IMG/VR virus record: IMGVR_UViG_3300006327_000006
Location: 1 to 26,281 of that record
Source of the DNA: a virus
Reading direction: 5' to 3' (one strand)
DNA length: 26,281 bases
A program made the position numbers and the translations under genes. A model generated the notes under the pieces. The model ran no database searches and was not told the origin of the DNA. It saw only the letters and a list, made by a program, of their open reading frames with translations. Positions 1-11,639 of this stretch are shown in pieces. Numbering within the stretch: the first letter of the stretch is position 1; the number at the start of each line of letters is the position of its first letter.

Positions 1-299
1 TGGCTGGAGCAGGACGTGGTGGCTGGTCCTTGTCGGTGTGAGCCCCGTGATTTAATTTGTCCTGCGTTCGCCTGCATGCCCACAGGCTTTGTCCTTTCGG
101 CTTGGTTGCTTCACCGTACAGCAGAACCTGTCTGGTTCAAGTGGTGCTCCGCAGCCAGCAAAACTTTCTGCCGCTGATCTCTGGGCTCGCAACGAACGAG
201 CGGCGAGATCTAGCGCCCACAAACTTTGGCTGCCCGAGCCACTTGCTCTGCATCAGAACCTGCTGTTCACGGCGCTTCAACCAACCAGAAAGGACCAGC
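1..299. other. Non-coding, structured left-end region
   Basis: I see no convincing gene here. The open frames that cross it begin at TTG or ATG codons without a Shine-Dalgarno sequence and give cysteine- and arginine-rich products that do not look like proteins. The stretch looks GC-richer than the genes to its right. It holds a long hairpin (172-215) and a weaker stem-loop (70-87, GCCTG/CAGGC) followed by T-rich sequence. A weak promoter-like pair, TTGTCG at 30-35 and TTTAAT at 51-56, could serve the rightward early genes, but its 15-base spacer is short. It may be an early leader, a non-coding RNA or a control region; the sequence alone does not decide. Confidence 0.5.
172..215 (+). other. 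Imperfect 44-nt hairpin in the early leader
   Basis: CGCT (172-175) and GATCTC (176-181) pair with GAGATC (205-210) and AGCG (212-215, one bulged T). After a 3x3 internal loop, GCTCG pairs with CGAGC around the seven-base loop CAACGAA. The structure lies about 85 bases before the first plausible early gene. It could be a regulatory RNA structure or a protein-binding site. It has no U-tract, so a simple terminator is unlikely. Confidence 0.5.
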
Positions 300-500
300 A
301 TGTCAGCACGCACTCGGCGATCTTGGACAAAGCCAAATCCCGTGTCTCTCTCCGCCAAGGAGATGAGGGCGAGAGATGGTTTTAATTCAATGTTTGCAGA
401 TGACGAAGGTTGTCTGCAAGAGATGGGCGAGCGTTACGTTGATACGGGCAAGTATGACCGTGGAACTAGCGGTAGCGGCTGGCTGACGGATCTGGACTGA
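300..500 (+). CDS. Small hypothetical phage protein (66 aa)
   Basis: I do not recognise this protein. The start chosen is the ATG at 300, which has AGAAAGGA about eight bases upstream; a longer in-frame reading from 57 has no ribosome site and an implausible composition. The product begins MSARTRRSW and is basic at the N-terminus. The rest is rich in Asp, Glu and Gly and ends in GSGWLTDLD. No cysteines, membrane segment or known motif are evident. It is the first probable gene of the rightward early cluster and ends 20 bases before the next start. Small early phage proteins often act on the host, but nothing here shows that. Confidence 0.6.
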   Translation: MSARTRRSWTKPNPVSLSAKEMRARDGFNSMFADDEGCLQEMGERYVDTGKYDRGTSGSGWLTDLD

Positions 501-520
501 CCAATATGCAAAGGAAACAA

Positions 521-1156
521 ATGCAGCAATTACAGACAGGGGCTCAGAAGCTCCAAGCAATAGTAGACAACATGGTTACAAACCACCTTGAAGTCTACAC
601 AGATGGTAACGAACAGGAATGTGGCTTCACGACTGCAGAGTTGCAGAAGCACGCTGACCAAGGTTACCAAAACAAAAACAACGGTACGGCTAGCCAATAT
701 CTGTACGTGTTCAACAGTGACCACCAAGTGGCTGAAGGTTATGCAGAAGAAGCTGCACGACGTTCAAGTGTTCCCGGTGAGCAGGCGATAGAGATACCTG
801 CACGTTGTCAGTTGCAATTCAAGGTTGTCGGAGCAGCGTTAGACATCCGTGAAGTAACTGAAGATGGTGAGCTTACCAAGGCAAACTTCCAAGAGACTGT
901 GTGGGTGCGTGACTTTGGCAATCACAAGCTGTGGGAAGATGGCAACACCGTGGCTATAGACGGTCAAACGTATCGACACCTGTCGCGGTTCACAAGGGAT
1001 CGCCACATGGGAAAGCCTTACATTCCGTGGGTTATCTACACCACGAATCTGCTACACGACGTAGATGTTCAGCTAATGAAGGCTGAATACAGGGACGTGA
1101 CCAATAAGGCTCGTGAGTTGAGTCAAGCAACCCCAAGCATGACATACATGCGCTAG
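521..1156 (+). CDS. Hypothetical early phage protein (211 aa)
   Basis: The start at 521 is preferred over the ATG at 506 because AAAGGA lies just upstream of it, while the earlier ATG has no ribosome site. The product starts MQQLQTGAQKLQ and appears soluble. A glutamine-rich helical N-terminus is followed by a mixed region with short beta-like stretches (for example LQFKVVGAAL and TVAIDGQTYRHL) and a charged C-terminus. No catalytic motif, signal peptide or membrane helix is visible and I do not recognise the family. It stands between the 66-residue protein and a strong RNA hairpin that begins nine bases after the stop, so it may be the last gene of a short first transcript. Confidence 0.75.
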   Translation: MQQLQTGAQKLQAIVDNMVTNHLEVYTDGNEQECGFTTAELQKHADQGYQNKNNGTASQYLYVFNSDHQVAEGYAEEAARRSSVPGEQAIEIPARCQLQFKVVGAALDIREVTEDGELTKANFQETVWVRDFGNHKLWEDGNTVAIDGQTYRHLSRFTRDRHMGKPYIPWVIYTTNLLHDVDVQLMKAEYRDVTNKARELSQATPSMTYMR

Positions 1157-1164
1157 AGGTCACA

Positions 1165-1210
1165 AGGTTGTACGTCTGTCAGTCATCAAGGCTGGCAGGC
1201 GTACAAACCT
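1165..1210 (+). terminator. 20-bp RNA hairpin, possible terminator or processing site
   Basis: Positions 1165-1184 pair with 1190-1210 around a five-base ATCAA loop. The stem is about 20 bp with one bulged A (1207) and three G-U pairs (1175/1199, 1179/1195, 1183/1191). These wobble pairs work only in RNA made from the plus strand; on the minus strand they would be C-A mismatches. The downstream sequence (ACATTTATTCG) is only modestly T-rich, so it could be a factor-independent terminator with a poor tail, an RNase III site, or an attenuator before the HTH gene at 1272. Confidence 0.55.
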
Positions 1211-1271
1211 ACATTTATTCGTATTCGTGTTCAGGTTTAGAGCACTTCATGTAAACCATAAAGGAAATGTT

Positions 1272-1487
1272 ATGCGACTTAACAAGTTGATAGAAGCACA
1301 TAAAGATTCGATAGATAAGACCCGTGAGTTAGAGAAGGACATACATAGTCGAGTTCGTGCGCGGGCCAGTAATGGTAGAACACTTAGCCAGATCCAAGAA
1401 GAAACAGGGTACAGTTTCAGACACATCGGGTTTATTCTTGGCCGTAAGAAGTACGAACAAATGGTGCTTGAACAAGGCTTATGTTAA
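1272..1487 (+). CDS. Small helix-turn-helix protein (71 aa)
   Basis: The start at 1272 has AAAGGAAATGTT directly upstream; a longer reading from 1227 lacks a ribosome site. The N-terminal third is charged and probably helical (MRLNKLIEAH, DKTRELEKDI). Residues 36-58 look like a helix-turn-helix: TLSQIQEETGYS followed by the recognition-like FRHIGFILGRKK. The size and layout resemble small phage regulators or Xis-like proteins, so it may bind DNA and control early genes; no specific family is claimed. It lies after the long hairpin and before a 47-base gap. Confidence 0.65.
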   Translation: MRLNKLIEAHKDSIDKTRELEKDIHSRVRARASNGRTLSQIQEETGYSFRHIGFILGRKKYEQMVLEQGLC

Positions 1488-1534
1488 TTAATTCTGGTAA
1501 AGTATCAGTAACCGTAACTTAGAAAGGATTCACG

Positions 1535-1804
1535 ATGAATCGTGATTACATTGATATGTCTACTGCTCGTGGCATACAGAAGTATATACAGCAGAGAATA
1601 TTAGAACTGTCGTCACCGCATCCAGACAGGGTGGCGATGATTGAAATGGGTGAGCTTAAGAAGCTCGACAAGTTGATTGATGCTGGCATAGACCAGATGA
1701 TTGAAGACATGCACCGTGAAAGCCAAGAGCGTGCACGTCAGCAAGAGATCCGGTTAGAAGATGCTGGTGTGAGTGTCGATGAGTACAAAGCGGAGGCGTT
1801 CTGA
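1535..1804 (+). CDS. Hypothetical helical protein (89 aa)
   Basis: AGAAAGGA stands nine bases before the ATG, and the start codon sits inside a small hairpin (TCACGA/TCGTGA, 1530-1545). The product is highly charged and predicted helical throughout, with segments such as RGIQKYIQQRILEL, MGELKKLDKLIDAG and MHRESQERARQQE that suggest a coiled coil. No known domain is recognised. The TGA stop overlaps the ATG of the next gene by one base, so the two are probably translationally coupled. Confidence 0.75.
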   Translation: MNRDYIDMSTARGIQKYIQQRILELSSPHPDRVAMIEMGELKKLDKLIDAGIDQMIEDMHRESQERARQQEIRLEDAGVSVDEYKAEAF

Positions 1805-1992
1805 TGCCGAAACTTACGAATGTAGACACACATTATGTGAACGAAGTAGCTGTGCGTCACCAGAAGATTGGCTGGACGTTAGGCATCTTGTACGCACACA
1901 ACTATGACATAGAGCAGTCAAGTCTTACTAAGAATCAGGTTGCTCAGTTAATTCAAACAGTCCATGAGCTAGTGACAGGGGAGAAAGAGTAA
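1804..1992 (+). CDS. Hypothetical protein (62 aa)
   Basis: The start overlaps the stop of the previous gene by one base (TGATG) and the stop overlaps the next start in the same way (TAATG), a typical packed phage operon. The product begins MPKLTNVDTHYVNEVAVRHQ and has a central hydrophobic patch (KIGWTLGILYAHNY) that is too short and polar to be a clear membrane helix. Its C-terminal half (LTKNQVAQLIQTVHELV) is probably helical. No known family is recognised. Confidence 0.7.
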   Translation: MPKLTNVDTHYVNEVAVRHQKIGWTLGILYAHNYDIEQSSLTKNQVAQLIQTVHELVTGEKE

Positions 1993-2153
1993 TGGAGTAC
2001 TTCAATATTGATCCACCGGACGATCCATATGAATATATGGATGATGAAGAATACGAAGCGGCGCTCGAAGGTTACGACGAGTACGACGCAGCAGATCAAC
2101 AAATAAAAGCAATGAAGGAGGAACCGTGGACATACCAGCGGCATCTTATTTAA
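1992..2153 (+). CDS. Very acidic 53-residue protein
   Basis: The ATG overlaps the previous stop (TAATG) and the frame runs to TAA at 2151-2153. I count 17 Asp/Glu against 3 Lys/Arg in 53 residues, with several tyrosines (MEYFNIDPPDDPYEYMDDEE at the N-terminus). Such composition is seen in phage DNA-mimic proteins that block host DNA-binding enzymes, but also in many small proteins of unknown role; the mimic idea is inference. The last 28 bases overlap the next gene, whose strong ribosome site AAGGAGGA lies inside this gene. Confidence 0.65.
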   Translation: MEYFNIDPPDDPYEYMDDEEYEAALEGYDEYDAADQQIKAMKEEPWTYQRHLI

Positions 2154-2311
2154 TGTTCGGATTCGCAGCAGCGTGGTCACACATGTTGTTGATTCTGAAA
2201 TGGGAAGAACACAAGAGACGGAAGCGTGAAGACGAAGCCGTCTATGTCAGACGAGTACAAGCAGAGCTAGATCAAGTAGCTCAACGGATACGAGATGAGT
2301 ACGTGGTATGA
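2126..2311 (+). CDS. Small single-helix membrane protein (61 aa)
   Basis: It starts with GTG at 2126, directed by the near-perfect ribosome site AAGGAGGA five bases upstream, which decides the start. Residues 3-24 (IPAASYLMFGFAAAWSHMLLIL) form one hydrophobic helix. It is followed by a strongly basic stretch (EEHKRRKRED) and a charged helix to the C-terminus, giving a likely N-out, C-in inner-membrane topology. Roles such as superinfection exclusion are possible but unproven. It overlaps the upstream gene by 28 bases and the downstream start by four (ATGA). Confidence 0.7.
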   Translation: MDIPAASYLMFGFAAAWSHMLLILKWEEHKRRKREDEAVYVRRVQAELDQVAQRIRDEYVV

Positions 2312-2607
2312 GTTTCGATTTTGAATATGTAAAAGTTGGGGATATTGGTGTGGATTCAGGCCAGATAATGGTGGTTGATCCATGTTATGTAACTGACGGT
2401 GAAACTTATGAAGCGATCTGTGAAACGACGTTGAGTAATGACAATGTAGGTGAAGTTGAAGGTGCTGTTGCTACCAGTACAACGTGGGGTGATGGATATT
2501 ATCCCGTGTTTAGGTTGATGAATGGCAGTACACAGGTAGGAATCGCTGTGGTTTATGGTGATGATCCTTTAGCAAACGCTTTCGACTACGAAGAAGAAGA
2601 AGAATAG
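2308..2607 (+). CDS. Conserved hypothetical protein with DSGQ/DPCY motif (99 aa)
   Basis: The start overlaps the previous stop (ATGA), so translation is probably coupled. Residues 12-28 read DIGVDSGQIMVVDPCYV. This pattern, a GxxxVDSG strand followed by a DPCY turn, is familiar from a group of small phage and bacterial proteins related to DUF4241; I use that as a resemblance only. Beta strands with the sequence GYYPVFRLMN and GIAVVYGDDP follow. The protein ends in a run of five glutamates. Its function is unknown. It is the last gene before a structured 150-base gap. Confidence 0.7.
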   Translation: MSFDFEYVKVGDIGVDSGQIMVVDPCYVTDGETYEAICETTLSNDNVGEVEGAVATSTTWGDGYYPVFRLMNGSTQVGIAVVYGDDPLANAFDYEEEEE

Positions 2608-2757
2608 GACGTAGCTAATCGGATGTCCGCACCACGAATGCCGAAGGGTGTACATGGGGCGTTGCCTGATTAGCTGCAAGAAAGGGAGAGGGGAGCTTGC
2701 CTCCCTGATATATGACAAGTTCCTCTCTCCTGAAGATCTCAATGAAAGGGAATAGAT
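2608..2757 (+). promoter_or_regulatory. Structured leader with alternative hairpins before the DUF932-like gene
   Basis: This is one of the few gaps in the early arm and it is full of paired sequence. AGCTAATC (2613-2620) pairs with GATTAGCT (2668-2675). Inside it ATGT (2623-2626) can pair with ACAT. Then GGAGAGGGGAGCTTG (2685-2699) pairs with CAAGTTCCTCTCTCC (2716-2730) using two G-U pairs. A competing small hairpin uses GGGAG (2691-2695) with CTCCC (2701-2705). The arm CCTCTCTCC could also cover the ribosome site AAAGGGA (2746-2752) of the next gene. This suggests a translational or transcriptional switch; no known riboswitch class is recognised. Confidence 0.5.
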
Positions 2758-3786
2758 ATGAGTCATAGAATGACTGAAACAGATGCGGTGCACGCACGTT
2801 ATCGTGTGGAAGCATGGCACAAGTTAGGAAAGGTCGGACATATCGACTGGTTGGAAGCTCGTAATGCTTTTGATTGGTGTGAGGTTGAAAGATCTACATT
2901 ACATATAGAACATGGCGACGAGTTCTGGGATCTAGGTGACAGGCAACTGTTAAAGATGGTTCACTATGCTCATGCGTTTGCAGAGGTGAGCCCTCGATAT
3001 CAGATAGTGCAGCATCGGTTTATGATTGATGATCTCACTGGCATCTTGCTTGACACTGGACTAGTAGAAACTATTGAATCAGTGGGTACTTATGACAACG
3101 GTGCTGTTGGTTATGTGTCGTTGAAGTTTAAGGATGGGATTGAGATACCGGGCTGGTCCCATGTTGATTCAATCTTTAATCTTGGTAACGGACATGACAA
3201 GAATGTGCCGTTGATAGCTACTCAGTCTGCTACTGCTGTTGTGTGTGCTAACACATTTAAGTGGAACATCTTAGACAACGATGCGGTGTTTAGATTCCGC
3301 AAGGTTGGTAAGCCACAAGAGATGATGGAACAAGCAGTCAGAGAACTATGCAAAGGTTACGAACGACACAAGAGTTACGCTCAGACTATTGAACGGATGG
3401 CTAATCAAGAGTTTGTTGATGGCCAATGGGATCAGTTAGTTGTTGATCTGATTGGACACAAGCCATCGTTCAACCCAGAAGCACCGGCTTTCACAGATGG
3501 TAAACAAAATCATCAGGGTTATTACAACAAGATAACTCGATGGTCTAACAACAAAGACGATTTGAATGCAAGGTTCTATCGTGATGAAGATATAGCTGGC
3601 GTGCGTAACACTAAGTGGGGTGCGCTGATGGCTGTCCAAGCATGGGAACAGAAAGATAAACCCATGAAAGGTACAAGCAAATGGATCGCTGGCACAGGTG
3701 AACGTAACCGAAGACACCAAGCGAGCGTCATGTTCGGGAAGCTACCGATGACCGAGAAAGCTGCAAAGGAATTAGTAAATGCATAG
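2758..3786 (+). CDS. DUF932 / TIGR03299 phage-plasmid protein (342 aa)
   Basis: The start has AAAGGGA six bases upstream. The length and several motifs fit the DUF932/TIGR03299 phage-plasmid family: AWHKLG near residue 19, the central QSATAVVCANTFKWNILD, FRFRKVG, and NTKWGALMAVQAWEQ toward the C-terminus. Members are widespread on phages and plasmids, and their biochemical role is not established to my knowledge. A link to DNA metabolism is suggested only by the neighbouring recombination genes. The protein appears soluble and has no signal peptide. It overlaps the next gene by eight bases. A structured leader precedes it, so it may be separately regulated. Confidence 0.85.
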   Translation: MSHRMTETDAVHARYRVEAWHKLGKVGHIDWLEARNAFDWCEVERSTLHIEHGDEFWDLGDRQLLKMVHYAHAFAEVSPRYQIVQHRFMIDDLTGILLDTGLVETIESVGTYDNGAVGYVSLKFKDGIEIPGWSHVDSIFNLGNGHDKNVPLIATQSATAVVCANTFKWNILDNDAVFRFRKVGKPQEMMEQAVRELCKGYERHKSYAQTIERMANQEFVDGQWDQLVVDLIGHKPSFNPEAPAFTDGKQNHQGYYNKITRWSNNKDDLNARFYRDEDIAGVRNTKWGALMAVQAWEQKDKPMKGTSKWIAGTGERNRRHQASVMFGKLPMTEKAAKELVNA

Positions 3787-4159
3787 TGGTAAAGAAGCTA
3801 GAGATGCTGGCATGAGACAAGTCGAAGCTAACGCACGACCATCTCAAAAGTTTGCTGCACAAATGGCAATCAAAAAATGTGTAACTAAGTATGGGCCGTG
3901 GCGAACATGGACTACTGACGAGGTTCACATGGAACTAAAAAAGATGGGGGTCAAGTTAGATAATGCTCGGCTCTTAGGCCCATTAATTAAGAAGGCGCAA
4001 CGAGGGGGGATGATAGAGGCTGTTGTTTGTCCGACTTGCAAACGTCAAGAAACTAAATTGTCTGAACGTAAAGAGCGACACGCTGGGCCTCAGTATATTT
4101 GGCGCACATCAAGTGATTACTACCACAGGTATTGGGAGCACACTGATGGAGCTAGTTAA
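3779..4159 (+). CDS. Winged-helix-like protein with CxxC (126 aa)
   Basis: AAAGGA lies about seven bases before the ATG, inside the end of the preceding gene. Residues 28-85 have the pattern of a small winged helix: a helix (FAAQMAIKKCVTKYG), a helix after WTTDEVHMELKKMG, a likely recognition helix (NARLLGPLIKKAQRGG) and a beta wing (MIEAVV). CPTCK follows at about residue 84 and could hold a metal only if the distant C34 or another partner helps. Proteins of this shape occur in phage replication modules. I infer DNA binding and do not assign a specific role. It overlaps the nuclease gene by 14 bases. Confidence 0.65.
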   Translation: MHSGKEARDAGMRQVEANARPSQKFAAQMAIKKCVTKYGPWRTWTTDEVHMELKKMGVKLDNARLLGPLIKKAQRGGMIEAVVCPTCKRQETKLSERKERHAGPQYIWRTSSDYYHRYWEHTDGAS

Positions 4160-4982
4160 TTCTGCAACGAGAGCTTTAACTCGTAAAGGTTTAGCTGATA
4201 GTTCAAAACCTACGGCAGATGGGTCTTTCTTGCGTGTGTCTTCTATCGGGAACTGTATTCGTCAACAAATCTATGACGGGTTAAGGGCTCCAGTTGAAGC
4301 AGGTAACCCTGACACTGCAGCTAATGGGCTGGTTGCACGGGAGATAGGTAACACTTTGCATAGCCAAGTCCAGTGTGCAATGGAAACTGATCCGGTCTTT
4401 GAAAAGTTTAGATCCGAAGTGCGTGTCTCTTTCCCTGAAGTCATGCGATCAGGTCATGCTGATGGAGTTTACCTATGGTTTCACAACAAGTTCGGAAAGT
4501 TCCAAGGAAGAATCTGTGTTGTTGAAATTAAAACCATGCGTAACTTTGCTTTCCGTAAGGCAAGGAAGGAAGGGCCGAGAGAACAACATCTCTTGCAAGC
4601 TGCCACCTATGCGCTTGGACTTAATGTTCATGCTGTTCACATGGTTTATATCTGTACTGATGCAACGCCGGGCAAGTGGAAAGACCAAGCTAAAGCTGGT
4701 GACACTATCGAATGGGTCTATGAACTAGACGACAGAGTTGAAGAAAGTGGTGCCACGTTACGCACAATCACTGAGTACGTGCTCGAAATGGAGATGCGCG
4801 AAACGATTACTGCTCTGCAAACTGGTGTGGTACCATTGGGTTTGAAAGGAAGCGGCGGTTCAGGCGACACTCCTTGGGAGTGTGGTTACTGTAGCTACCG
4901 GAAGCTTTGCGAGTCACCTGAGGGGGACTCAATAAGTTCAATACTAAGAATAAAGGAAAAGGATAATGAGTCAGTTAGCTAA
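4146..4982 (+). CDS. Cas4-like PD-(D/E)XK nuclease (278 aa)
   Basis: The start at 4146 is chosen because GGGAG lies about eight bases upstream and the conserved region begins soon after; the longer reading from 4023 runs far into the previous gene. The fold is that of Cas4/RecB-type exonucleases: an N-terminal cysteine (C37 in SSIGNCIRQQIY), SGHADGVY followed by VVEIKT (the D...ExK core), QAATYALGL (the Q motif), and a C-terminal CGYCSYRKLC. The four cysteines could hold an iron-sulfur cluster, as in Cas4 and AddB. No Cas1, Cas2 or array is present. With the annealing protein and SSB downstream, it probably resects DNA ends for phage recombination. Confidence 0.85.
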   Translation: MELVNSATRALTRKGLADSSKPTADGSFLRVSSIGNCIRQQIYDGLRAPVEAGNPDTAANGLVAREIGNTLHSQVQCAMETDPVFEKFRSEVRVSFPEVMRSGHADGVYLWFHNKFGKFQGRICVVEIKTMRNFAFRKARKEGPREQHLLQAATYALGLNVHAVHMVYICTDATPGKWKDQAKAGDTIEWVYELDDRVEESGATLRTITEYVLEMEMRETITALQTGVVPLGLKGSGGSGDTPWECGYCSYRKLCESPEGDSISSILRIKEKDNESVS

Positions 4983-5385
4983 GTTAGCGACGCCATTCCA
5001 AGACAAGTTCATCGAAACTAAACCGGGGAAGTTTGCAGCAGCATATGTACCCCACGGAATAGTGACGCAGTTTCTTTTGGGGATCGTAGGAGCTTATGAT
5101 TTTTCTATTGATGATGTTGTTAGGGATGCTGATGGTACTGTTACTGGTTGCCTCTGCACTCTTGTTGTCGATGTTGATGGACGAACTACCTCGATACAAG
5201 AGGTTGGTGAGTGCGAGAATCCGACGAACTGGAAGACAGATGGAGCACGTCTGAAGGCTTGCGCTTCGGATGGTATTAAAAGATGTGCGATGAGGTTGGG
5301 CTTAGGTCTGCATCTCTGGCATAAACATGACGGGAACTATGTTCTCGCAGACATTCTTGAAAAAAGAAAGGAAGACAATGAGTGA
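4966..5385 (+). CDS. Rad52-like single-strand annealing protein (139 aa)
   Basis: GGAAAAGGAT precedes the ATG. The sequence shows the pattern of small Rad52/22-type phage recombinases: VPHGIVTQFLLGIVG near residue 29, a beta-rich middle (VTGCLCTLVVDVDGRTTSI, EEVG-like QEVGE), then TDGARLKACASDGIKRCAMRLGLGLHLW. The last motif, with a helix carrying conserved K/R and a GLGLHLW ending, is the most diagnostic part. Such proteins anneal complementary single strands, usually together with a nuclease that makes the strands. Here the nuclease lies just upstream (17-base overlap) and SSB just downstream (8-base overlap). The family call is from memory of the motif. Confidence 0.7.
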   Translation: MSQLAKLATPFQDKFIETKPGKFAAAYVPHGIVTQFLLGIVGAYDFSIDDVVRDADGTVTGCLCTLVVDVDGRTTSIQEVGECENPTNWKTDGARLKACASDGIKRCAMRLGLGLHLWHKHDGNYVLADILEKRKEDNE

Positions 5386-5776
5386 GATCACCATTGCAGG
5401 AAACATAGGACAAGACCTAGAGCTACGGTTCTCTAAACAAGGGACAGCTAACGTAATGTTTTCAGTAGCTGTAACCACTGGACGAGACACCACCAAAGCC
5501 ACGCATTGGTTCGATGTGAAATGTTTTGACACGCTAGCTGAACGCATAGCCGAGTTGTCAAAAGGAGACAGGATCATAGTTAAAGGTCGCATGAAAGAAG
5601 ATGAATGGTCCAACAAGGAAGGCAAGAGCATCAAGAAATTACGGCTGTATGCTGATGATGCTGGCCCTTCATGGAGGTGGGAACCAAGAGGTTCTCAAAG
5701 TGATACGGTACAAGCGAAAGCAGTTTCGGCTGTACAAAAGGGATTCGAAATAGAGGATGATACGGAGCCCTTCTAG
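5378..5776 (+). CDS. ssb: Single-stranded DNA-binding protein
   Basis: The start at 5378 has AAAGGA upstream; a longer reading from 5327 lies inside the previous gene. The product (132 aa) has an OB-fold layout: ITIAGNIGQDLELRF at the N-terminus, VMFSVAVTT, THWFDVKCF, LSKGDRIIVKGRMKEDEW and a final strand KKLRLYADD. It ends with a short flexible tail and the acidic tip DDTEPF, the usual protein-interaction hook of bacterial-type SSBs. It coats single-stranded DNA during phage replication and recombination. The stop overlaps the GTG start of the next gene. Confidence 0.95.
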   Translation: MSEITIAGNIGQDLELRFSKQGTANVMFSVAVTTGRDTTKATHWFDVKCFDTLAERIAELSKGDRIIVKGRMKEDEWSNKEGKSIKKLRLYADDAGPSWRWEPRGSQSDTVQAKAVSAVQKGFEIEDDTEPF

Positions 5777-6036
5777 TGGATGAGAACCATATATTGATAC
5801 CGATACTCAACGAAGATGTAACAATCTTTTCTGCTGTAGTACCTAAAGATTTCGCGGATCAATTAGAACTTGAAGCTATTCACTTTGTTGACAGGTTTGA
5901 ACGGCATCCATCTGGTTATGCAATGGATCCGAACAACAAACTCGAACAAGCTAAATCATTTATTATTCAAAACGCTTTACAGTTCTGGCTCATGTACAAC
6001 GAAGACAGAGATTACTTACCACCTGAAGTGAACTAA
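5776..6036 (+). CDS. Hypothetical protein (86 aa)
   Basis: It begins with GTG at 5776, overlapping the SSB stop by one base (TAGTG); the only nearby ATG is in another frame and ends at once. The product, MDENHILIPILNEDVTIF at its N-terminus, is acidic and contains one likely helix (FADQLELEAIHFVDRF) and a second around KLEQAKSFIIQNALQFWLMY. No family is recognised. Its place between SSB and a resolvase suggests a small accessory role in DNA metabolism, but nothing direct supports this. The stop overlaps the next start (TAATG). Confidence 0.7.
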   Translation: MDENHILIPILNEDVTIFSAVVPKDFADQLELEAIHFVDRFERHPSGYAMDPNNKLEQAKSFIIQNALQFWLMYNEDRDYLPPEVN

Positions 6037-6512
6037 TGAACAAAGCAAAACAAAAGGGGACGGCTTGGGAAACCGAGTGCGTTCGCTATCTATCTAACGT
6101 CGTCTTTAATAACACTAAAGGGTTTAGAAGATCTCCGTTGTCAGGTAGTAAGGACACAGGGGATATCGAAAGCGCTTGGCTTCCTGAATTTGTATTCGAA
6201 TGCAAAAACAGGAAGGATGCGCTGTCATCTTTATCAGAGATAATGAAAGAAACAGAACAAGAAAGGATTAATGCAGACGCAGATTACGGAGTGGCATTAG
6301 TGAAACGTAGGAACTTCGGAACCGGAGGGGCTTACGTTGTCATGGAGCTAGCACACTTTGCTTCGTTGCTTAGAACATGGATGGATATGAAAGAAAGGGA
6401 AAGTCGTGGGGGAATTAATACACTTGGATATCCCCTATCACCCGGAGTTCAAGAACGTAACTCACATGTTGAACACATGGTGGAAGGAACAAGAACGCAA
6501 GCCGCTGACTAA
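6036..6512 (+). CDS. Hjc-like Holliday junction resolvase / PD-(D/E)XK nuclease
   Basis: The 158-residue product starts KAKQKGTAWETECVRYL and continues FRRSPLSGSKDTGDIES and FVFECKNRK. The catalytic pattern is therefore E12 in the first helix, D43, then E55-x-K57, matching archaeal Hjc and phage nucleases of the same superfamily. These enzymes cut four-way or branched DNA, here probably recombination intermediates or branched replication products before packaging. The C-terminal 35 residues look unlike the family and overlap the next gene by 107 bases, which is unusually long; the true end may be shorter in relatives or the tail may simply be unconstrained. Confidence 0.85.
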   Translation: MNKAKQKGTAWETECVRYLSNVVFNNTKGFRRSPLSGSKDTGDIESAWLPEFVFECKNRKDALSSLSEIMKETEQERINADADYGVALVKRRNFGTGGAYVVMELAHFASLLRTWMDMKERESRGGINTLGYPLSPGVQERNSHVEHMVEGTRTQAAD

Positions 6513-6735
6513 ACCAGCACGCATACGACATGTCGTGGAGATGGCTATCACTGCAGGCTGGACAATCAATGAATGTTACGCAGCGTTAAGCGTAACGTGG
6601 GCGTTCACTGAAGCTGCGTTTGAGACAGCGTTACGGAAACTACGGGAAGAACAAGAAGACCGTTACGGAAAGATCGGGAATAAAATTCTCGAATTAAGAA
6701 AGGAAAGAATAAATGGGAAACGAAGAACTGAGTAG
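6406..6735 (+). CDS. Hypothetical protein overlapping the resolvase (109 aa)
   Basis: A GTG at 6406 has AAAGGGA five bases upstream, and an in-frame TGA at 6388-6390 limits the frame to the left. An internal ATG at 6466 is the main alternative start but has no clear ribosome site. The product is well balanced and helical, with HPEFKNVTHMLNTWWKEQER, then ARIRHVVEMAITAGWTINEC and FETALRKLREEQEDRYGK. The middle may form a DNA-binding helical domain, but I do not recognise it. The frame is +1 relative to the resolvase, so it is a separate overlapping gene rather than a simple extension. Confidence 0.65.
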   Translation: MGELIHLDIPYHPEFKNVTHMLNTWWKEQERKPLTKPARIRHVVEMAITAGWTINECYAALSVTWAFTEAAFETALRKLREEQEDRYGKIGNKILELRKERINGKRRTE

Positions 6736-6859
6736 GGAAGAAAAGATTGCGTGGCAAAAGAAAGCTATGAGGTCACGGAACAACCCAGTCCTATTCAAGA
6801 ATGACTCCTTTACCAAAGGAGAAATAGAAGAAGCAAGAAAGGATAAAGAGAATGCTTGA
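6713..6859 (+). CDS. Small charged protein (48 aa)
   Basis: This short frame begins at an ATG with AAGGAAAGAATAA upstream and overlaps both neighbours (23 bases with the previous gene, 8 with the next). The product, MGNEELSREEKIAWQKKAMR at its N-terminus, is rich in Lys and Glu with no hydrophobic core or cysteine, and looks like one or two exposed helices. No family is recognised. The clear ribosome site and operon position support it as a real gene. Confidence 0.6.
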   Translation: MGNEELSREEKIAWQKKAMRSRNNPVLFKNDSFTKGEIEEARKDKENA

Positions 6860-7043
6860 AGCTGTTAACGTCTTAGACTTAGATGAACTTCCGCATGTGA
6901 TTGTGCGAGGCAATCTTAGTGACGGCTACGACATCGTTGGTCCATTCAATGGATGGGATGCTGCTTTAAAATATGATGAGAACTTTATTCAGTTCGAATC
7001 AACGTGGATCATGCCACTAGTAGAACCGTTTGTTGACAAATGA
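6852..7043 (+). CDS. Hypothetical protein (63 aa)
   Basis: The ATG lies eight bases inside the previous gene, with AAGGATAAAGAGA upstream. The product is acidic with a compact mixed fold: VLDLDELPHVIVRGN, then DGYDIVGPFNGWDAALKYDE, then a hydrophobic end (STWIMPLVEPF). The strand-turn-helix order recalls small phage proteins of unknown role with a GPFxxxxxA motif, where a strand is followed by a helix. The stop overlaps the start of the transglycosylase-like gene by four bases (ATGA). Confidence 0.65.
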   Translation: MLEAVNVLDLDELPHVIVRGNLSDGYDIVGPFNGWDAALKYDENFIQFESTWIMPLVEPFVDK

Positions 7044-7375
7044 TTTGGTTAGCGATCTGGAGAATACTGGACTTCGCTACTGTAAACCACGAGCCACCTA
7101 ACCCTGAGATACCAGCAGTTGTATGCGAATACTTCCAAGAAGATTGCGTGACTGCATTAAGTATTAGTTGGTGCGAAAGTTTGCATAACCCACGGGCGTT
7201 TAATGCGAAGACTATTGATAATGGGTTGTTTCAAATCTCAACTTATTATTGGAAAGAAAGTTTTAGCAGTCAGTTGTGGGCTCAACGATTCGAAGTCGAA
7301 GCCTCGACCAAGATGGCTGCATTCATAGTTAATAACACACGCCAAGGCTGGCAGTTGTGGACATGTGGAAGGTAG
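7040..7375 (+). CDS. Secreted lytic-transglycosylase-like protein (111 aa)
   Basis: A hydrophobic N-terminus (MIWLAIWRILDFATV) could be a signal anchor. Next comes a lysozyme-like/SLT-type core: ALSISWCESLHNPRAFN with probable catalytic E46, then DNGLFQIS at about residues 60-67, and a helix KMAAFIVNN before GWQLWTCGR. The ES...NP.A.N...D.GLFQI pattern is that of goose-type/Rpf-like lytic transglycosylases, which cleave peptidoglycan glycan strands. Cysteines at 29, 36, 45 and 109 could form disulfides outside the cytoplasm. It is short for the family and lies in the early operon, away from the amidase/holin pair. Its use (DNA entry, lysis or other) is uncertain. Confidence 0.7.
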   Translation: MIWLAIWRILDFATVNHEPPNPEIPAVVCEYFQEDCVTALSISWCESLHNPRAFNAKTIDNGLFQISTYYWKESFSSQLWAQRFEVEASTKMAAFIVNNTRQGWQLWTCGR

Positions 7376-7377
7376 AT

Positions 7378-7707
7378 ATGACTGAAGATCAAGCTGATGA
7401 ACTGCTACTAGTGATGTCACAAATGTGGTTCAAGAATGTTAGTATGCCTGTTGGAACATTGAAGATCTGGACAAGTGTGCTACACGATCTGGACTATGAT
7501 TCTGTAAGAACCACAGTAAAGGAATTGGTACGTGAAACCCCTTACTGGCCGTCGATTGCCGAGTTCAAGAATGAGTACCAGAATATTATTAGACGCAATC
7601 AGATGGTCGTTAAGCCAATCGAGAGAGAGTATCTCCCTCGTGAGGAGAATGTTCGTCGCCTCCGTGAACTTCGGAAGCAACTCAGAGAAGGAACCATTGA
7701 GGGCTAG
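7378..7707 (+). CDS. Probable helicase-loader-like protein (109 aa)
   Basis: The ATG at 7378 is favoured because GGAAGG lies five bases upstream; GTG at 7357 would lengthen it by seven residues. The product is helical: MTEDQADELLLVMSQMWF, then WTSVLHDLDYDSVRTTVKEL, then YWPSIAEFKNEYQNIIRR, and a charged tail with KPIEREYLPREE. The spacing of W...L.DLDYD.V......L....YWPSIAEF resembles the G39P/G40P-loader family, whose members load the replicative helicase at phage origins. No helicase gene is in the window. The call is a family resemblance, not a demonstrated function. Confidence 0.55.
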   Translation: MTEDQADELLLVMSQMWFKNVSMPVGTLKIWTSVLHDLDYDSVRTTVKELVRETPYWPSIAEFKNEYQNIIRRNQMVVKPIEREYLPREENVRRLRELRKQLREGTIEG

Positions 7708-7726
7708 TGGGCTGGTTACCCGTGAA

Positions 7727-7768
7727 GGAGCATAGAGAGTGTTAATTTCCTTTCTATCTCTATGCTCC
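7727..7768 (+). terminator. 12-bp perfect hairpin, probable terminator of the early operon
   Basis: GGAGCATAGAGA (7727-7738) pairs perfectly with TCTCTATGCTCC (7757-7768) around an 18-base loop rich in T. It begins 20 bases after the helicase-loader stop. Downstream is GCCCTCTAATATTTTGTT, moderately T-rich rather than a clean U-tract. The loop is longer than usual for an intrinsic terminator, but position and stem strength fit an operon end. Confidence 0.6.
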
Positions 7769-7774
7769 GCCCTC

Positions 7775-7780
7775 TAATAT
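7775..7780 (+). promoter_or_regulatory. TAATAT -10 box for an apparently leaderless gene
   Basis: TAATAT matches TANNNT and ends six bases before the ATG at 7787, which would place the transcript start on the A of the start codon. No Shine-Dalgarno sequence is present. Leaderless transcripts with this spacing are common in Actinobacteria. No convincing -35 box is seen about 17 bases upstream. Confidence 0.55.
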
Positions 7781-7786
7781 TTTGTT

Positions 7787-8566
7787 ATGCAGAAGCATGT
7801 AGTCATGTTCTCAGGTGGTAAGGCATCCTTTCTTGCTGCTGCTTTAGCTAAAGAACGATACGACGATGTGCTGCTGTTATTTACTGATACTAAAACTGAA
7901 GACGAAGATCTGTACAGATTCCTTTATGAAGCAAGCGACGCTTTAGATCTACCGTTGGAACATATCGCAGATGGCCGAGACATTTGGCAAGTCTTTAAAG
8001 ACTCTAGGTTTCTTGGGAATAACAGAGTTCCTTTATGTTCAAGGATACTGAAGCAAGAAATAAGTAGACGATGGTTAGACGCTCATTGTGAATCGCCTGA
8101 AGAAACAACAATACATTTTGGTATTGACTGGACAGAGATTCATAGGACAGAAAGAATCCCCAAACACTGGACCCCATATCAAGTTGACTTTCCTTTATTA
8201 TGGGAACCATTAAGTGACAAAGAAGATGCAGATATGCTGCTCGCACGTTATGGGATAAAGCAACCAAGGCTTTATGATCTCGGCGCACCACATAATAATT
8301 GTGGAGGGCTGTGTGTACGGGCAGGACACGGCCATTTCAAGTGGGCGTTGAAAGCGATACCAGATACATTCGCTGATTGGGAGCAGAAGGAAGAAGAAAT
8401 GCGGCAAGAACTAGGAGCTAACGTCGCTATTCTTAGAGATAGATCGGGTGGGGAAAGCAAACCGATAACGCTCAAACAATTCAGGGGAAAGATCGAAGCG
8501 GAAGATACTGGTCAGCTAGATCTGTTCGACTGGGGTGGCTGCGGCTGCATGATAGATGACGAGTAA
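7787..8566 (+). CDS. PAPS-reductase-like ATP-pyrophosphatase (259 aa)
   Basis: The N-terminus KHVVMFSGGKASFLAAALA carries the SGGKxS PP-loop (residues 9-14) that binds ATP in PAPS reductase, tRNA-thiolation and DndC-type enzymes. Strand/helix alternation follows (DDVLLLFTDTK). Conserved cysteines are C84 in VPLCSRILK, C172 and C176 in NNCGGLCVRAG, and C252/C254 in GGCGCM at the end. This pattern is typical of phage proteins labelled phosphoadenylyl-sulfate reductase, whose true substrate is generally unknown; it lacks the usual catalytic C-terminal motif of true sulfate-assimilation enzymes as far as I can see. Sulfur transfer to nucleic acid or another adenylation is possible. It appears to have its own leaderless promoter. 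Confidence 0.8.
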   Translation: MQKHVVMFSGGKASFLAAALAKERYDDVLLLFTDTKTEDEDLYRFLYEASDALDLPLEHIADGRDIWQVFKDSRFLGNNRVPLCSRILKQEISRRWLDAHCESPEETTIHFGIDWTEIHRTERIPKHWTPYQVDFPLLWEPLSDKEDADMLLARYGIKQPRLYDLGAPHNNCGGLCVRAGHGHFKWALKAIPDTFADWEQKEEEMRQELGANVAILRDRSGGESKPITLKQFRGKIEAEDTGQLDLFDWGGCGCMIDDE

Positions 8567-8613
8567 CCACTAAACGTGGTAAAATAAAGGAAGACCATGA
8601 CAAGGAGAAACAA

Positions 8614-8784
8614 ATGGATGTCAAGGTTGAATCCATACCGGCACGAATACTAGGCGGACCAACGATCAAAGGCTACGCAGTCATATGCGATAGCCAGATC
8701 CGTGAATGGTACCGCACACGTACAGAAGCTGAAAGACTTGCCGACATAATCAAACAGGATTCACAAAACCCAGAAGATTACTAA
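8614..8784 (+). CDS. Small hypothetical protein (56 aa)
   Basis: AAGGAG lies seven bases before the ATG at 8614. The product starts MDVKVESIPARILGGP, with a short beta region (KGYAVICDSQIREWY) and a helix (EAERLADIIKQ), a beta-beta-alpha layout seen in many small phage proteins. It ends in TAATG, overlapping the next start by one base. No family or motif is recognised. Confidence 0.65.
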   Translation: MDVKVESIPARILGGPTIKGYAVICDSQIREWYRTRTEAERLADIIKQDSQNPEDY

Positions 8785-8951
8785 TGTTCACCGACGATCT
8801 CGGCCACATCCGGTGGGAGAAAGCCGACTTCAAGAAGCACGGAACAATAGCTAAATACCTTGTCGGCGAATGTCGTTGCCGTAAATGCAAAAAACGTATA
8901 CTCGAACCAGATATGGAACGTACTTTGCCAGCTAGGTATAACGGCTATTAA
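8784..8951 (+). CDS. Small cysteine-motif protein (55 aa)
   Basis: The ATG overlaps the previous stop. The product begins MFTDDLGHIRWEKADFKKHG and contains CRCRKCKKR at residues 30-37, that is three cysteines close together in a basic segment. This could bind a metal only with another partner, or DNA through its charge. It is the last gene of the plus-strand arm; its TAA at 8949-8951 overlaps the TAA of the convergent exonuclease gene (8948-8950). No family is recognised. Confidence 0.6.
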   Translation: MFTDDLGHIRWEKADFKKHGTIAKYLVGECRCRKCKKRILEPDMERTLPARYNGY

Positions 8952-9703
8952 ACCACTTCGGGTCTGTCGTTGTGTTGAGCCAACCGCTCTCGACAATACG
9001 CTTTACAGCGGCTGCATTGGTATTGTTGGTAGGCCAGTGTGCGTGTCCACCTGACACCACGCTTATGCAACCTGTTGCCGCCACACGTTGGACAAGCGAA
9101 CGTGGTTTGGTCGATGACGTTTCTGTTCGGGTGGTTTGTAGCCCAAGGACGCAATCGTTCATAGACATCAACAAGTAAATCGACATCTTGTTTAGCGTAT
9201 TTTTTCATGGTCGCCCATGCTTTGGCTTCACCCCTCATACATCCTGCCCACGTTTGGAATCCTCCTGTTGTTTCTTTGCCACCTAATCCGAGATGTTCTC
9301 CGAGGTGTCCAAGTCTATTGCTATTAAATTTGAAATAACGGCGAGCTATTTTCAACGTATCGACAGAACCGAAATGACTTGGTGGCCCAAGTTCGTGGTA
9401 AACAAACCTTGCATTAGCTTTCTTGATATCGAATGCGTCTGAGTTGTGACCGATCACAATGTCTGCTTCGTCGATCAGTTCCCATAGTTTCTTAACTACT
9501 TCTAAATCGTTTTCAGAATCTTCGTTGTAAAGATCAAAGTCGTTTAGCGAAACGACATGGGTTTTCTTTTGGTCTTCCCACTTATATGAGAAACATAGAA
9601 TATACCATTCTCGTTTGTGGTCGATGACATCTTGTTGCCATTGGCCCCACACGTATGCCAAGTTAGGTGCAGTTTCTATGTCAAAGAAAAGAACTTTAGC
9701 CAT
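8948..9703 (-). CDS. DEDDy 3'-5' exonuclease (RNase H-like) with C-terminal zinc ribbon
   Basis: The 251-residue product has the DnaQ-like motifs in order: LFFDIETAPN (D8, E10), IVIGHNSDAFDIKKAN (D89 or D92) and YAKQDVDLL (Y169, D173), so the active site is of the DEDDy type. CPTC at 204-207 and CSRC at 230-233 form a likely zinc ribbon at the C-terminus. It probably degrades DNA or RNA from the 3' end; no polymerase domain is attached. GAGGGG lies just before the ATG. It is the last gene of the leftward arm, seven bases after the large tail gene, which is an odd place for a DNA-metabolism gene. Confidence 0.85.
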   Translation of the reverse strand: MAKVLFFDIETAPNLAYVWGQWQQDVIDHKREWYILCFSYKWEDQKKTHVVSLNDFDLYNEDSENDLEVVKKLWELIDEADIVIGHNSDAFDIKKANARFVYHELGPPSHFGSVDTLKIARRYFKFNSNRLGHLGEHLGLGGKETTGGFQTWAGCMRGEAKAWATMKKYAKQDVDLLVDVYERLRPWATNHPNRNVIDQTTFACPTCGGNRLHKRGVRWTRTLAYQQYQCSRCKAYCRERLAQHNDRPEVV

Positions 9704-9710
9704 ATCCCCT

Positions 9711-11639
9711 CTAGCTTGGAACTGTTAAGAGCCTGACTAAGAGAGTACCTTCCCACCAGCTTCCATCATCGGATAGGCGTTCGGGTTGCATCTCTAACCG
9801 TTCAACTGTTACGTTCTCTGATCTGTCCCCTTCTTTATAATTAACAGCACCGCCGCTTTCCATTAGTGTTCTTAAACTTGTGAAGGTATCACCTGCCGCT
9901 AATGTTTGAGGGGCTCCCGAGTTGCGTGCAGTTAACACGTTACGTCTAAGAACGATAGGTAGAATGACTTCATCAATTCTGCGTGGCGTAGCTACTGCTG
10001 TTAGCTGCCAGTCGTGGCAGATAGGGGAAGCTGTAGTAGGAGAAGCTGATCGTTCTAACTCTACCGTTAGGTCATAAGAAATAGCGGTCGCTTCATCGCT
10101 AGGAAACACGAATGTTTCTGGGTTACCAGTAGTCAAAGTGCCAGATGAACTAGGAATATATGCTGCCGTGTTCTGTCTGTTGACTGCTTTTAAACGTATC
10201 TTGCCGACTGGTGTGCTGGTTTCATTGCCTAATGTATAGGTGTTGTCGTCTTGTGCGTAGTCTGTTCCTGATTGTGGGTACACCATTTTTATGCGTTCGA
10301 ATTGTGAACGGTCGAGGTCTATCACTCCAGATCTCAGAAGCTTCGGGACTACTGTTGACCAAGTGATTTCGCCTACTATCAGAGAACCAGTAGCTAGCTT
10401 CACGTCGGTGTAGCTTTCGCGAAACAATCCTCCTGCTCCACTAGCTTTATTTACTGCGAGGAACAGCTTGGGGGATCCATCGTTATTTAATCTACATAAA
10501 GAAACTACGTTGTCTCCGGCTGCGATAGAGCCTGTCATGTAAAGATCGGCTGCGTATGCAGGCACCAGTGTGTCTGTAAATCTGGCTAGGTTCGCTCGGA
10601 ATACTTGTGCGTTGTTGCCTCCCCACCACATAAACTCTTGGTCAGCTTCTAAACAGAACGCTTCGCCACCTGTGTCGATGGCTGGGCCTATGACAACACC
10701 AGAAGAATCTTGCTCGATGAGCCCGACTCGGAATCCTTTACTAGTGGCTATCCCTATTAGCCCTGCGTAAGCAACGATTTCGTTTATGTATTCGTTACGA
10801 GGGAGGGAAGCTGCGATTGTGGGAGCAGACAAAGTTCCGTCAGTTGCGTTGACTCCTATGTAATACAAAGATCCGGTGTTGTCTGTGTTGGCGGCAGCGT
10901 AGATACCGTTAGCTGCGGCGCTGGCAGACACCCATGTGCTAGAAGACAAAGGCAACGAATAGTCGAGGGAGGAACTGGCTTTAGCTCCAGAGGAATCCAG
11001 TTCGTAAATAGAATTAGAATCGGCAGCGATCATACGCCCGGCTGCGACATGCAAAAGATCAGGGGTTAGGCTGCCGTATCCCAAGTCTGAACTTAACCCA
11101 AGGGCGTATTTTTGTGGGACGTTTGTGGTGTCACGACCCACGTAGACTGATGCGCCATCGCTTGTCAGACTTGTGACGTTGCTTGTGGTGCTGATAGTTG
11201 TCCACGCTGTTCCACCGTTGGTGCTGAAAAACAAGCTGGAGTCCGATGCCATGTAAATGTATTCGGTGCCATCGCTAGCTTTCGTAAACCGTTTGATGAT
11301 TAGATCTTCTGTGCCTAAGGTCAGGCTTGACGCTGCGTCTTCAGTTTCGGGCAGCAAAGTAATCTGGCCCTTAGTCCACACATCAATACCTGTTGACGAG
11401 AAGAAACGTCTACGATCAGAGTCTTCATAGTCGAGGTAAAGTTGTCCTGCACCATAAGACCAGTCAGTTTGTGAGCGTACCCACGCACCAGTCGTATCAA
11501 GAGTGTTCTCTCCGGGTTCCCTACTGTTGTCACGTTGCTGACGCGAAACAGGAATCGTTGTACGTCGATACTCACGTGTGTCTAATAAATAAGACACACC
11601 GTTAAGTTCGATAGGTAACGATTCGGAATTAAAACTCAC
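9711..11639 (-). CDS. Large tail protein with beta-propeller-like repeats (642 aa)
   Basis: It begins with GTG at 11639, overlapping the previous stop by four bases (GTGA). The N-terminus (LPIELNGVSYLLDTREYRRT) leads to RSQTDWSYGAGQLYLDYEDSDRRRFFSSTGIDVW (split here as RSQTDWSYGAGQ and EDSDRRRFFSS), a motif I associate with actinophage minor tail proteins. The middle (about residues 105-420) repeats short beta blocks such as TEYIYMASDSSLFFSTNG and GSLYYIGVNATDG, as in a beta propeller. In podoviruses the tail nozzle is a propeller protein following the adaptor gene, and here a connector-like gene comes first. I therefore infer a tail tube, nozzle or baseplate component. No enzymatic motif is seen. 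Confidence 0.7.
   Translation of the reverse strand: MSFNSESLPIELNGVSYLLDTREYRRTTIPVSRQQRDNSREPGENTLDTTGAWVRSQTDWSYGAGQLYLDYEDSDRRRFFSSTGIDVWTKGQITLLPETEDAASSLTLGTEDLIIKRFTKASDGTEYIYMASDSSLFFSTNGGTAWTTISTTSNVTSLTSDGASVYVGRDTTNVPQKYALGLSSDLGYGSLTPDLLHVAAGRMIAADSNSIYELDSSGAKASSSLDYSLPLSSSTWVSASAAANGIYAAANTDNTGSLYYIGVNATDGTLSAPTIAASLPRNEYINEIVAYAGLIGIATSKGFRVGLIEQDSSGVVIGPAIDTGGEAFCLEADQEFMWWGGNNAQVFRANLARFTDTLVPAYAADLYMTGSIAAGDNVVSLCRLNNDGSPKLFLAVNKASGAGGLFRESYTDVKLATGSLIVGEITWSTVVPKLLRSGVIDLDRSQFERIKMVYPQSGTDYAQDDNTYTLGNETSTPVGKIRLKAVNRQNTAAYIPSSSGTLTTGNPETFVFPSDEATAISYDLTVELERSASPTTASPICHDWQLTAVATPRRIDEVILPIVLRRNVLTARNSGAPQTLAAGDTFTSLRTLMESGGAVNYKEGDRSENVTVERLEMQPERLSDDGSWWEGTLLVRLLTVPS

Follow-up and report, generated by a model that had tools for sequence, protein, structure and literature searches.

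Setting and anatomy of the element

The window, a 26,281-base virus record analysed at its full length, carries small plus-strand genes in its left part, followed by a DUF932 gene and recombination genes. Its minus-strand structural genes are similar to those of Manuel and other Streptomyces phages, and among the matches listed the major capsid protein is 37-40% identical to that of such phages. The DUF932 gene is the first of the downstream operon in this phage. It matches PHROG 1221, a group of unknown function, and its sole relative among 50,697 deposited phage records is a distant one (23%). An AlphaFold2 model of the DUF932 protein from 12 sequences was of low confidence (pLDDT 37.6), and we know of no RNA-binding role for DUF932. 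A phosphoadenosine phosphosulfate reductase-like gene at 7787-8566 (PHROG 424, E 6.2e-43) is a candidate auxiliary metabolic gene. Between the ORF at 2308-2607 and the ATG of the DUF932 gene at 2758 lies a conserved element of two hairpins, P1 and P2, with the following features.

2605-2607, plus strand: stop codon TAG, with which the preceding ORF (2308-2607) ends; the element starts flush with it
2607-2741, plus strand: conserved RNA element matched by covariance model R1 (151 positions) at 110.6 bits, E 4e-27, the window being among the 18 copies from which R1 was built
2611-2622, plus strand: 5' strand of P1, a 12-bp base helix, pairing with 2666-2677
2623-2665, plus strand: tip of P1, type A in the window, variable among copies
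2666-2677, plus strand: 3' strand of P1, pairing with 2611-2622
2678-2683, plus strand: linker AAGAAA between P1 and P2, invariant in 25 of 25 copies
2684-2699, plus strand: 5' strand of P2, a 16-bp helix, pairing with 2716-2731
2700-2715, plus strand: loop or tip of P2, differing between phages and swapped as a module
2716-2731, plus strand: 3' strand of P2, a pyrimidine-rich arm, pairing with 2684-2699
2732-2741, plus strand: conserved single-stranded tail GAAGATCTCA, with GAAGATC in 24 of 25 copies (exception L019)
2745-2751, plus strand: Shine-Dalgarno sequence (SD) AAAGGGA of the next gene
2758-3786, plus strand: DUF932 gene (Pfam PF06067, E 1.5e-20; PHROG 1221)
3779-5776, plus strand: downstream operon with an unknown 126-aa gene and genes for a PD-(D/E)XK/Cas4-type exonuclease, a Rad52/Erf-type annealing protein and an SSB

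Across copies the element is 97-201 nt long, and its variable parts are the two hairpin tips. Three parts are fixed in sequence: ACGT at the 5' end (25/25 copies), AAGAAAGGGAG (25/25) and GAAGATC (24/25). At the base of P1 it is the pairing that is fixed and the sequence is free; in AAGAAAGGGAG and GAAGATC the sequence itself is fixed. The 5' strand of P2 opens with eight nearly invariant, Shine-Dalgarno-like bases, GGGAGAGG. In other copies the upstream reading frame stops next to the element or within its first ~36 bases, and copies with a type B tip (described below) in most cases have stop codons in all three frames near the 5' end. In 24 of 25 copies the start codon of the next gene follows the element at 15-21 nt, and in L019 at 42 nt; we give the 15-21 nt spacing little weight because the genomes are compact. 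L019 (about 1485-1520) also stands alone in its tail, which reads GAAAGTCTG and leads into a small hairpin of its own, CCAGTAAATCACTGG, before the next gene. Beyond the DUF932 gene of L047 we observed a second hairpin (10552-10667, minus strand), with a 14-bp stem followed by TGAAATCTCA. It recalls P2 with its tail and is a weak match to R1 (16.3 bits, E 0.081).

Folding and covariation of the two hairpins

The initial annotation had placed two stems ahead of the DUF932 gene, and both were found there at a strength beyond chance. The MFE of 2600-2780 is -64.4 kcal/mol compared with -45.5 +/- 4.4 in dinucleotide shuffles (n=200), giving a z of -4.3 with none of the 200 shuffles as good. The 135-nt element alone folds at -58.0 and the best of 436 plus-strand stretches of that length scanned in this sequence reaches -56.5; none of them folds as well.

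A lack of covariation in either stem had been named beforehand as one observation that would refute the proposed structures, and the test did not refute them. Using a MAFFT alignment of 25 distinct copies (A4; 23 pairs, 573 cells), we found that 98.3% of the cells are paired, compared with 89.4% after shuffling and at most 60.0% when the partner strand was slid. Both sides have changed in 10 of the 23 pairs (a number that 33 of 500 shuffles reach) and in 51 cells (reached by none of 500), and the covariation score is 0.413 compared with 0.246 in shuffles (0/500 as high) and at most 0.143 with the partner slid, the significance from shuffling being overstated since the copies are related to one another. 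There is also a wobble bias: 101 cells are G-U and 2 are A-C, of 565 that are Watson-Crick, G-U or A-C. Because kinship inflates the shuffle-based significance, the slid control and the wobble bias are the safer evidence for an RNA fold of the plus strand.

Covariation is strong in P1, where 99.3% of the base cells are paired and 6 of 12 pairs have changed on both sides across the 25 distinct copies, six of the ten such pairs in all. The inner three pairs of P2 covary and its base is nearly invariant: the first eight pairs hardly vary, with G-C/G-U exchange at both ends, and at one pair of the base A-U has become G-C or G-U in 4 copies. The inner helices of type B copies, P1b and P1c, also covary, and the two rows of the type B alignment that are one base out of register (L049, L155) cost pairs and gain none. 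The covariation and the G-U bias identify the element as a plus-strand RNA, and comparison of the copies shows that 2607-2741 encodes a predicted transcript of two adjacent hairpins in the order P1, AAGAAA, P2, GAAGATCTCA.

A search of the window against Rfam (4227 families, gathering score) gave no match, and at E <= 10 the interval 2280-2800 gave just CRISPR-DR47 (E 7.4) and mir-9201 (E 8.7), both at chance level. This covariance-model search at gathering and permissive thresholds agrees with the initial annotation, which had recognised no known riboswitch. Our literature searches turned up no paper recognisably on the two-hairpin element. The further suggestion that this may be a new regulatory RNA stands as far as a new structured RNA is concerned, on the covariation, the wobble bias, the lack of an Rfam match and the linkage to the DUF932 operon; the layout of a switch that went with it is not supported, as detailed below.

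Distribution of the family and exchange of hairpin tips

A DUF932 search found 28 viral loci and an alignment-based search 43, of which 36 are close relatives (64-100% identity) and 7 distant (23-28%). R1 detected the element in 35 of the 36 close-relative viral contigs. The lone miss is L027/L158, a contig whose first base already lies within DUF932; R1 found no match in its whole record either. When whole records were searched, 17 of 18 contained the element, with one sense-strand copy each; three extra matches were antisense hits on the same hairpin. None of the seven distant relatives (L160-L166) has the element, R1 found no match in Streptomyces phage Manuel or the LuckyBarnes region, and ct2KA10 gave a single partial match (10.7 bits, E 1.6). 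For copies in hosts or prophages, an exact core pattern run against genome contigs gave 0 matches. A DUF932 search of genome contigs gave one metagenome-bin contig, L172, which carries the element together with DUF932 (67%). This contig (L172/G018) is of phage type in a bin labelled Gammaproteobacteria, and the window's structural genes are Streptomyces-phage-like; the label may reflect the host or a binning error.

The copies were gathered partly by the exact core pattern. Seven of them (L017, L019, L025, L143, L154, L155 and L172) were outside the training of R1 and were reached via DUF932 searches or R1, and L017, L019, L025 and L154 depart from the exact pattern. A loose 16-base pattern for the tail fetched 58 loci, five of which hold the element at E <= 3e-33. 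The 14 further R1 matches among these loci (E 0.033-0.89) were taken as chance.

The element had been described as lying before the DUF932-like gene, which is correct for the window, but in other phages several different genes follow it. Right after the element some phages have DUF932 and others one of several small genes, the gene right before it also varies, and the distance from the start of the element to that of DUF932 is 113-851 nt in 13 mapped loci. An SLT-type lysozyme gene is found ~4.4 kb downstream of the element in the window (7040-7375) and directly upstream of it in L013, L015, L020 and L024. Thus, the gene order around the element is shuffled. Comparison of the loci shows an element kept once per record at the head of what is by gene content a recombination operon, in one phage clade.

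The P1 tips of the 25 distinct copies are of type B in 17, of type A, as in the window, in 6, and a short loop in the 2 minimal copies (L020, L024). The type B tip is ~60 nt long and has an internal loop and a TATAAT/TACAAT motif. L154 and L155, which come from two samples, have 23 differences in 9,013 aligned columns, and 15 of these fall within the 39-nt P1 tip; the replaced tip is still a hairpin. In L022 and L023 the P2 tips are 49% identical, and both 60-nt flanks and the P1 tip are identical. The reverse is seen in L047 and L154, which have an identical P2 tip in flanks that are just ~60% alike. The simplest cause of such swaps would be recombination between phages helped by the conserved arms, and selection for difference would be a more interesting one. 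Assembly chimeras are a caveat for the tip swaps, weakened by the recurrence of the same tips in several samples.

Candidate functions of the element

We favour, with a probability of about 0.3, an element that would act in cis within the nascent RNA in front of the recombination operon, working like the put RNA of phage HK022 without being a member of that family. HK022 put RNA binds the beta' zinc-binding domain and suppresses pausing and termination. PMC9378689 describes putL as two stem-loops, with stem I holding a -10-like sequence that is proposed to bring about a sigma-dependent pause and so aid folding; putR as described there has no -10-like sequence and lies ~270 nt from the start site of its promoter. 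The element is like put in having two adjacent stem-loops in a phage transcript (predicted here, with covarying stems) and no protein partner evident in that text, and also in that one subtype has a -10-like motif in stem I and the other does not (PMC9378689).

A put-like element would act in cis within the nascent early mRNA, at the level of the operon. The folded hairpin pair would stay attached to the RNA polymerase that transcribes it, or to factors of that polymerase, and would keep the enzyme elongating through the operon, by anti-pausing or antitermination in the manner of HK022 put. In type B copies the -10 motif within stem 1 may cause sigma-bound polymerase to pause while P1 folds, and in the window phage, which has no -10 motif, folding would occur without such a pause. 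Three features lead us to this reading: the -10/pausing parallel, the pair of neighbouring hairpins and a position at the level of the operon. One sense copy per record, 113-851 nt to DUF932 and changing adjacent genes suit a role for the operon rather than for a single gene.

Of the 16 rows of alignment A5, 13 have TATAAT as the stem 1 motif of type B and 3 have TACAAT, and the helix around it covaries. The motif is mostly a perfect extended -10, TGNTATAAT, which is rare elsewhere in the 18 loci scanned. Of 12 scanned loci with a type A or minimal element, 8 also have a perfect TGNTATAAT upstream of it, at 308 nt (L004, L005, L007, L008, L009, L011) or 125 nt (L020, L024), these eight being two lineages and not eight independent cases; it is a possible promoter by its sequence.

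Several observations count against the put-like reading. The 700 nt before the element contain no extended -10 (7 or 8 of 8 matches) in the window, L002, L041 or L157, the last being the same contig as L041. The type B motif may simply be a promoter. There is no excess of intrinsic terminators to read through, with 7 found in 1-9000 compared with 6.6 expected, and the rapid replacement of tips is not obviously expected of a put-like RNA. R1 gave no match to HK022 at E <= 10. The element also differs from put in length (97-201 nt compared with ~70 nt), in its 6-nt invariant linker and swappable tips, and in occurring once per record where put occurs twice; a triplex is reported for put, and our comparison is at the level of the two stem-loops. 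Two other systems invite comparison. The EAR element of Bacillus is likewise an intergenic RNA within an operon, where it acts on elongation, but the window is without any Rfam match. Phage leader operators such as that of T4 gp32 are bound by the operon's own gene product; they resemble the element in being structured RNAs upstream of a nucleic-acid metabolism operon and differ from it in that the gene next to the element varies.

The initial annotation had read the locus as a switch with mutually exclusive structures. The complementarities behind this, GGGAG with CTCCC and CCTCTCTCC with AAAGGGA, are present as sequence, and the exclusive structures are possible on paper, but the alternative is not conserved. 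The local hairpin is missing in 6 of 21 distinct copies. In the window it is worth -9.8 compared with -26.6 for the full P2 stem, and it is no better than with shuffled tips (44% of shuffles as good). A switch based on the local hairpin was rejected for its lack of conservation. The proposed pairing of the pyrimidine arm with the ribosome site has the same median, -7.6 kcal/mol, for the 25 copies' own sites as for those of 188 other genes (p 0.39). With the hairpin and the mini-ORF (below) unconserved and the complementarity to the ribosome site in no excess, the layout of a switch found no support in these three tests.

The idea of the initial annotation, put as a translational switch, is rather unlikely. 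Here the 5' arm of P2 would serve as anti-anti-SD and the 3' arm as anti-SD, and a ligand, protein or ribosome occupying the 5' arm would free the 3' arm to cover the SD. The 5' arm is indeed SD-like, its duplex with CCUCCUUUCU having a median of -9.6 kcal/mol compared with -8.8 to -9.0 for real RBSs, and blocking it in silico raises mean pairing between the SD and the 3' arm from 0.00 to 0.46 (25 copies) and lowers mean SD freedom from 0.65 to 0.43. The sequence of the P2 base is kept, as a three-way match would need, and the start codon is 15-21 nt away in 24 of 25 copies. However, the arm binds the 188 other RBS regions equally well (p 0.39), and since any purine-rich SD would do there is no sign that the arm/SD pair was selected. 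Blocking costs ~15 kcal/mol of fold stability (means -68.2 native and -52.8 blocked), the adjacent gene differs between phages, and in at least four copies (L019, L022, L049, L143) the freed arm scarcely finds the SD (0.02-0.15). P3, a pairing of the tail's UCUC with the SD, was rejected as it is altered without compensation in L020, L024, L154 and L155. Translational riboswitches and anti-SD leaders share with the element a structured leader near an SD and a complementary pyrimidine arm; here there is no Rfam riboswitch match, the arm is not specially matched to the adjacent SD and the adjacent gene is not constant.

We consider it unlikely that the element serves in RNA processing, stabilisation or self-cleavage, whether as an RNase III-type site, a novel ribozyme or the source of a small RNA cut from early mRNA. 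It is a discrete structured unit flush with the genes on both sides and, like many ribozymes, has a conserved unpaired core at a helix junction and dispensable tips. Neither a ribozyme nor any other Rfam family matches it, however, and P1 in the minimal copies (L020, L024) consists of 12 bp and a short loop, which is a short helix for RNase III. A hammerhead-like CUGAAGA...GAAA noticed by eye was rejected, its U being C in 12 of 25 copies and no matching stem III being seen.

The tip swaps raise the prospect, a doubtful one in our judgement, that the core presents variable tips as an identity tag to antisense RNA, superinfection immunity or a host RNA-sensing defence, with exchange under selection for difference. 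Wholesale tip replacement between near-identical phages (L154/L155, L022/L023), the recurrence of the same P2 tips in unrelated flanks (L047/L154) and the pairing kept by new P1 tips would fit such a tag. Against it, neither an antisense RNA nor a receptor turned up in a shallow search, some copies (L020, L024) have minimal tips, and the pattern could also have arisen by homologous recombination at the conserved arms or by chimeric assembly of phages that occur together. We regard as more doubtful still the combined proposal in which the tips are tag cassettes under selection for difference, for antisense immunity or escape from defence, on a core that controls the recombination operon.

It is very unlikely that the hairpins act as single-stranded DNA, as a site for priming, for the origin of replication or for recombination. 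The single copy per record, the place next to the genes for SSB, annealing protein and exonuclease, and a purine-rich tract in the 5' arm of P2 would suit this, but 101 of the 565 cells scored as Watson-Crick, G-U or A-C are G-U, a G-T pair costs a DNA hairpin more stability than a G-U pair costs an RNA one, and there is no GC-skew turn at the element. A leader-peptide attenuator, in which a mini-ORF within the P2 tip would use the 5' arm of P2 as its SD, is highly improbable: a mini-ORF of 2-8 codons starting with ATG or GTG comes after the arm in L009, L017, L019, L022, L041, L143 and L172 and a 3-codon TTG mini-ORF in the window, L002 and L008, but the scanned interval has no start codon in L004, L013, L020, L024, L025, L026 and L034, the peptide is unconserved and P2 hides the SD-like arm. 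The scan found no plus-strand intrinsic terminator at P2, after which comes GAAGATCTCA. One minus-strand terminator-like site overlaps P2 (2705-2686), within a total that fits chance numbers, and was rejected because plus-strand G-U would be minus-strand A-C (101 compared with 2).

The element is a new RNA family of uncertain function within the structured RNAs of phage operons, with exchangeable tips as an unusual trait. It is a well-supported structured RNA without an Rfam counterpart, present in essentially every member found of its clade, and gives structure probing and transcription assays something small and concrete to work on. If its tips were identity tags, phages would have a new kind of variable recognition element. 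If the element is put-like, as we tentatively favour, the control of elongation by a nascent RNA without protein would extend beyond the lambdoid phages.
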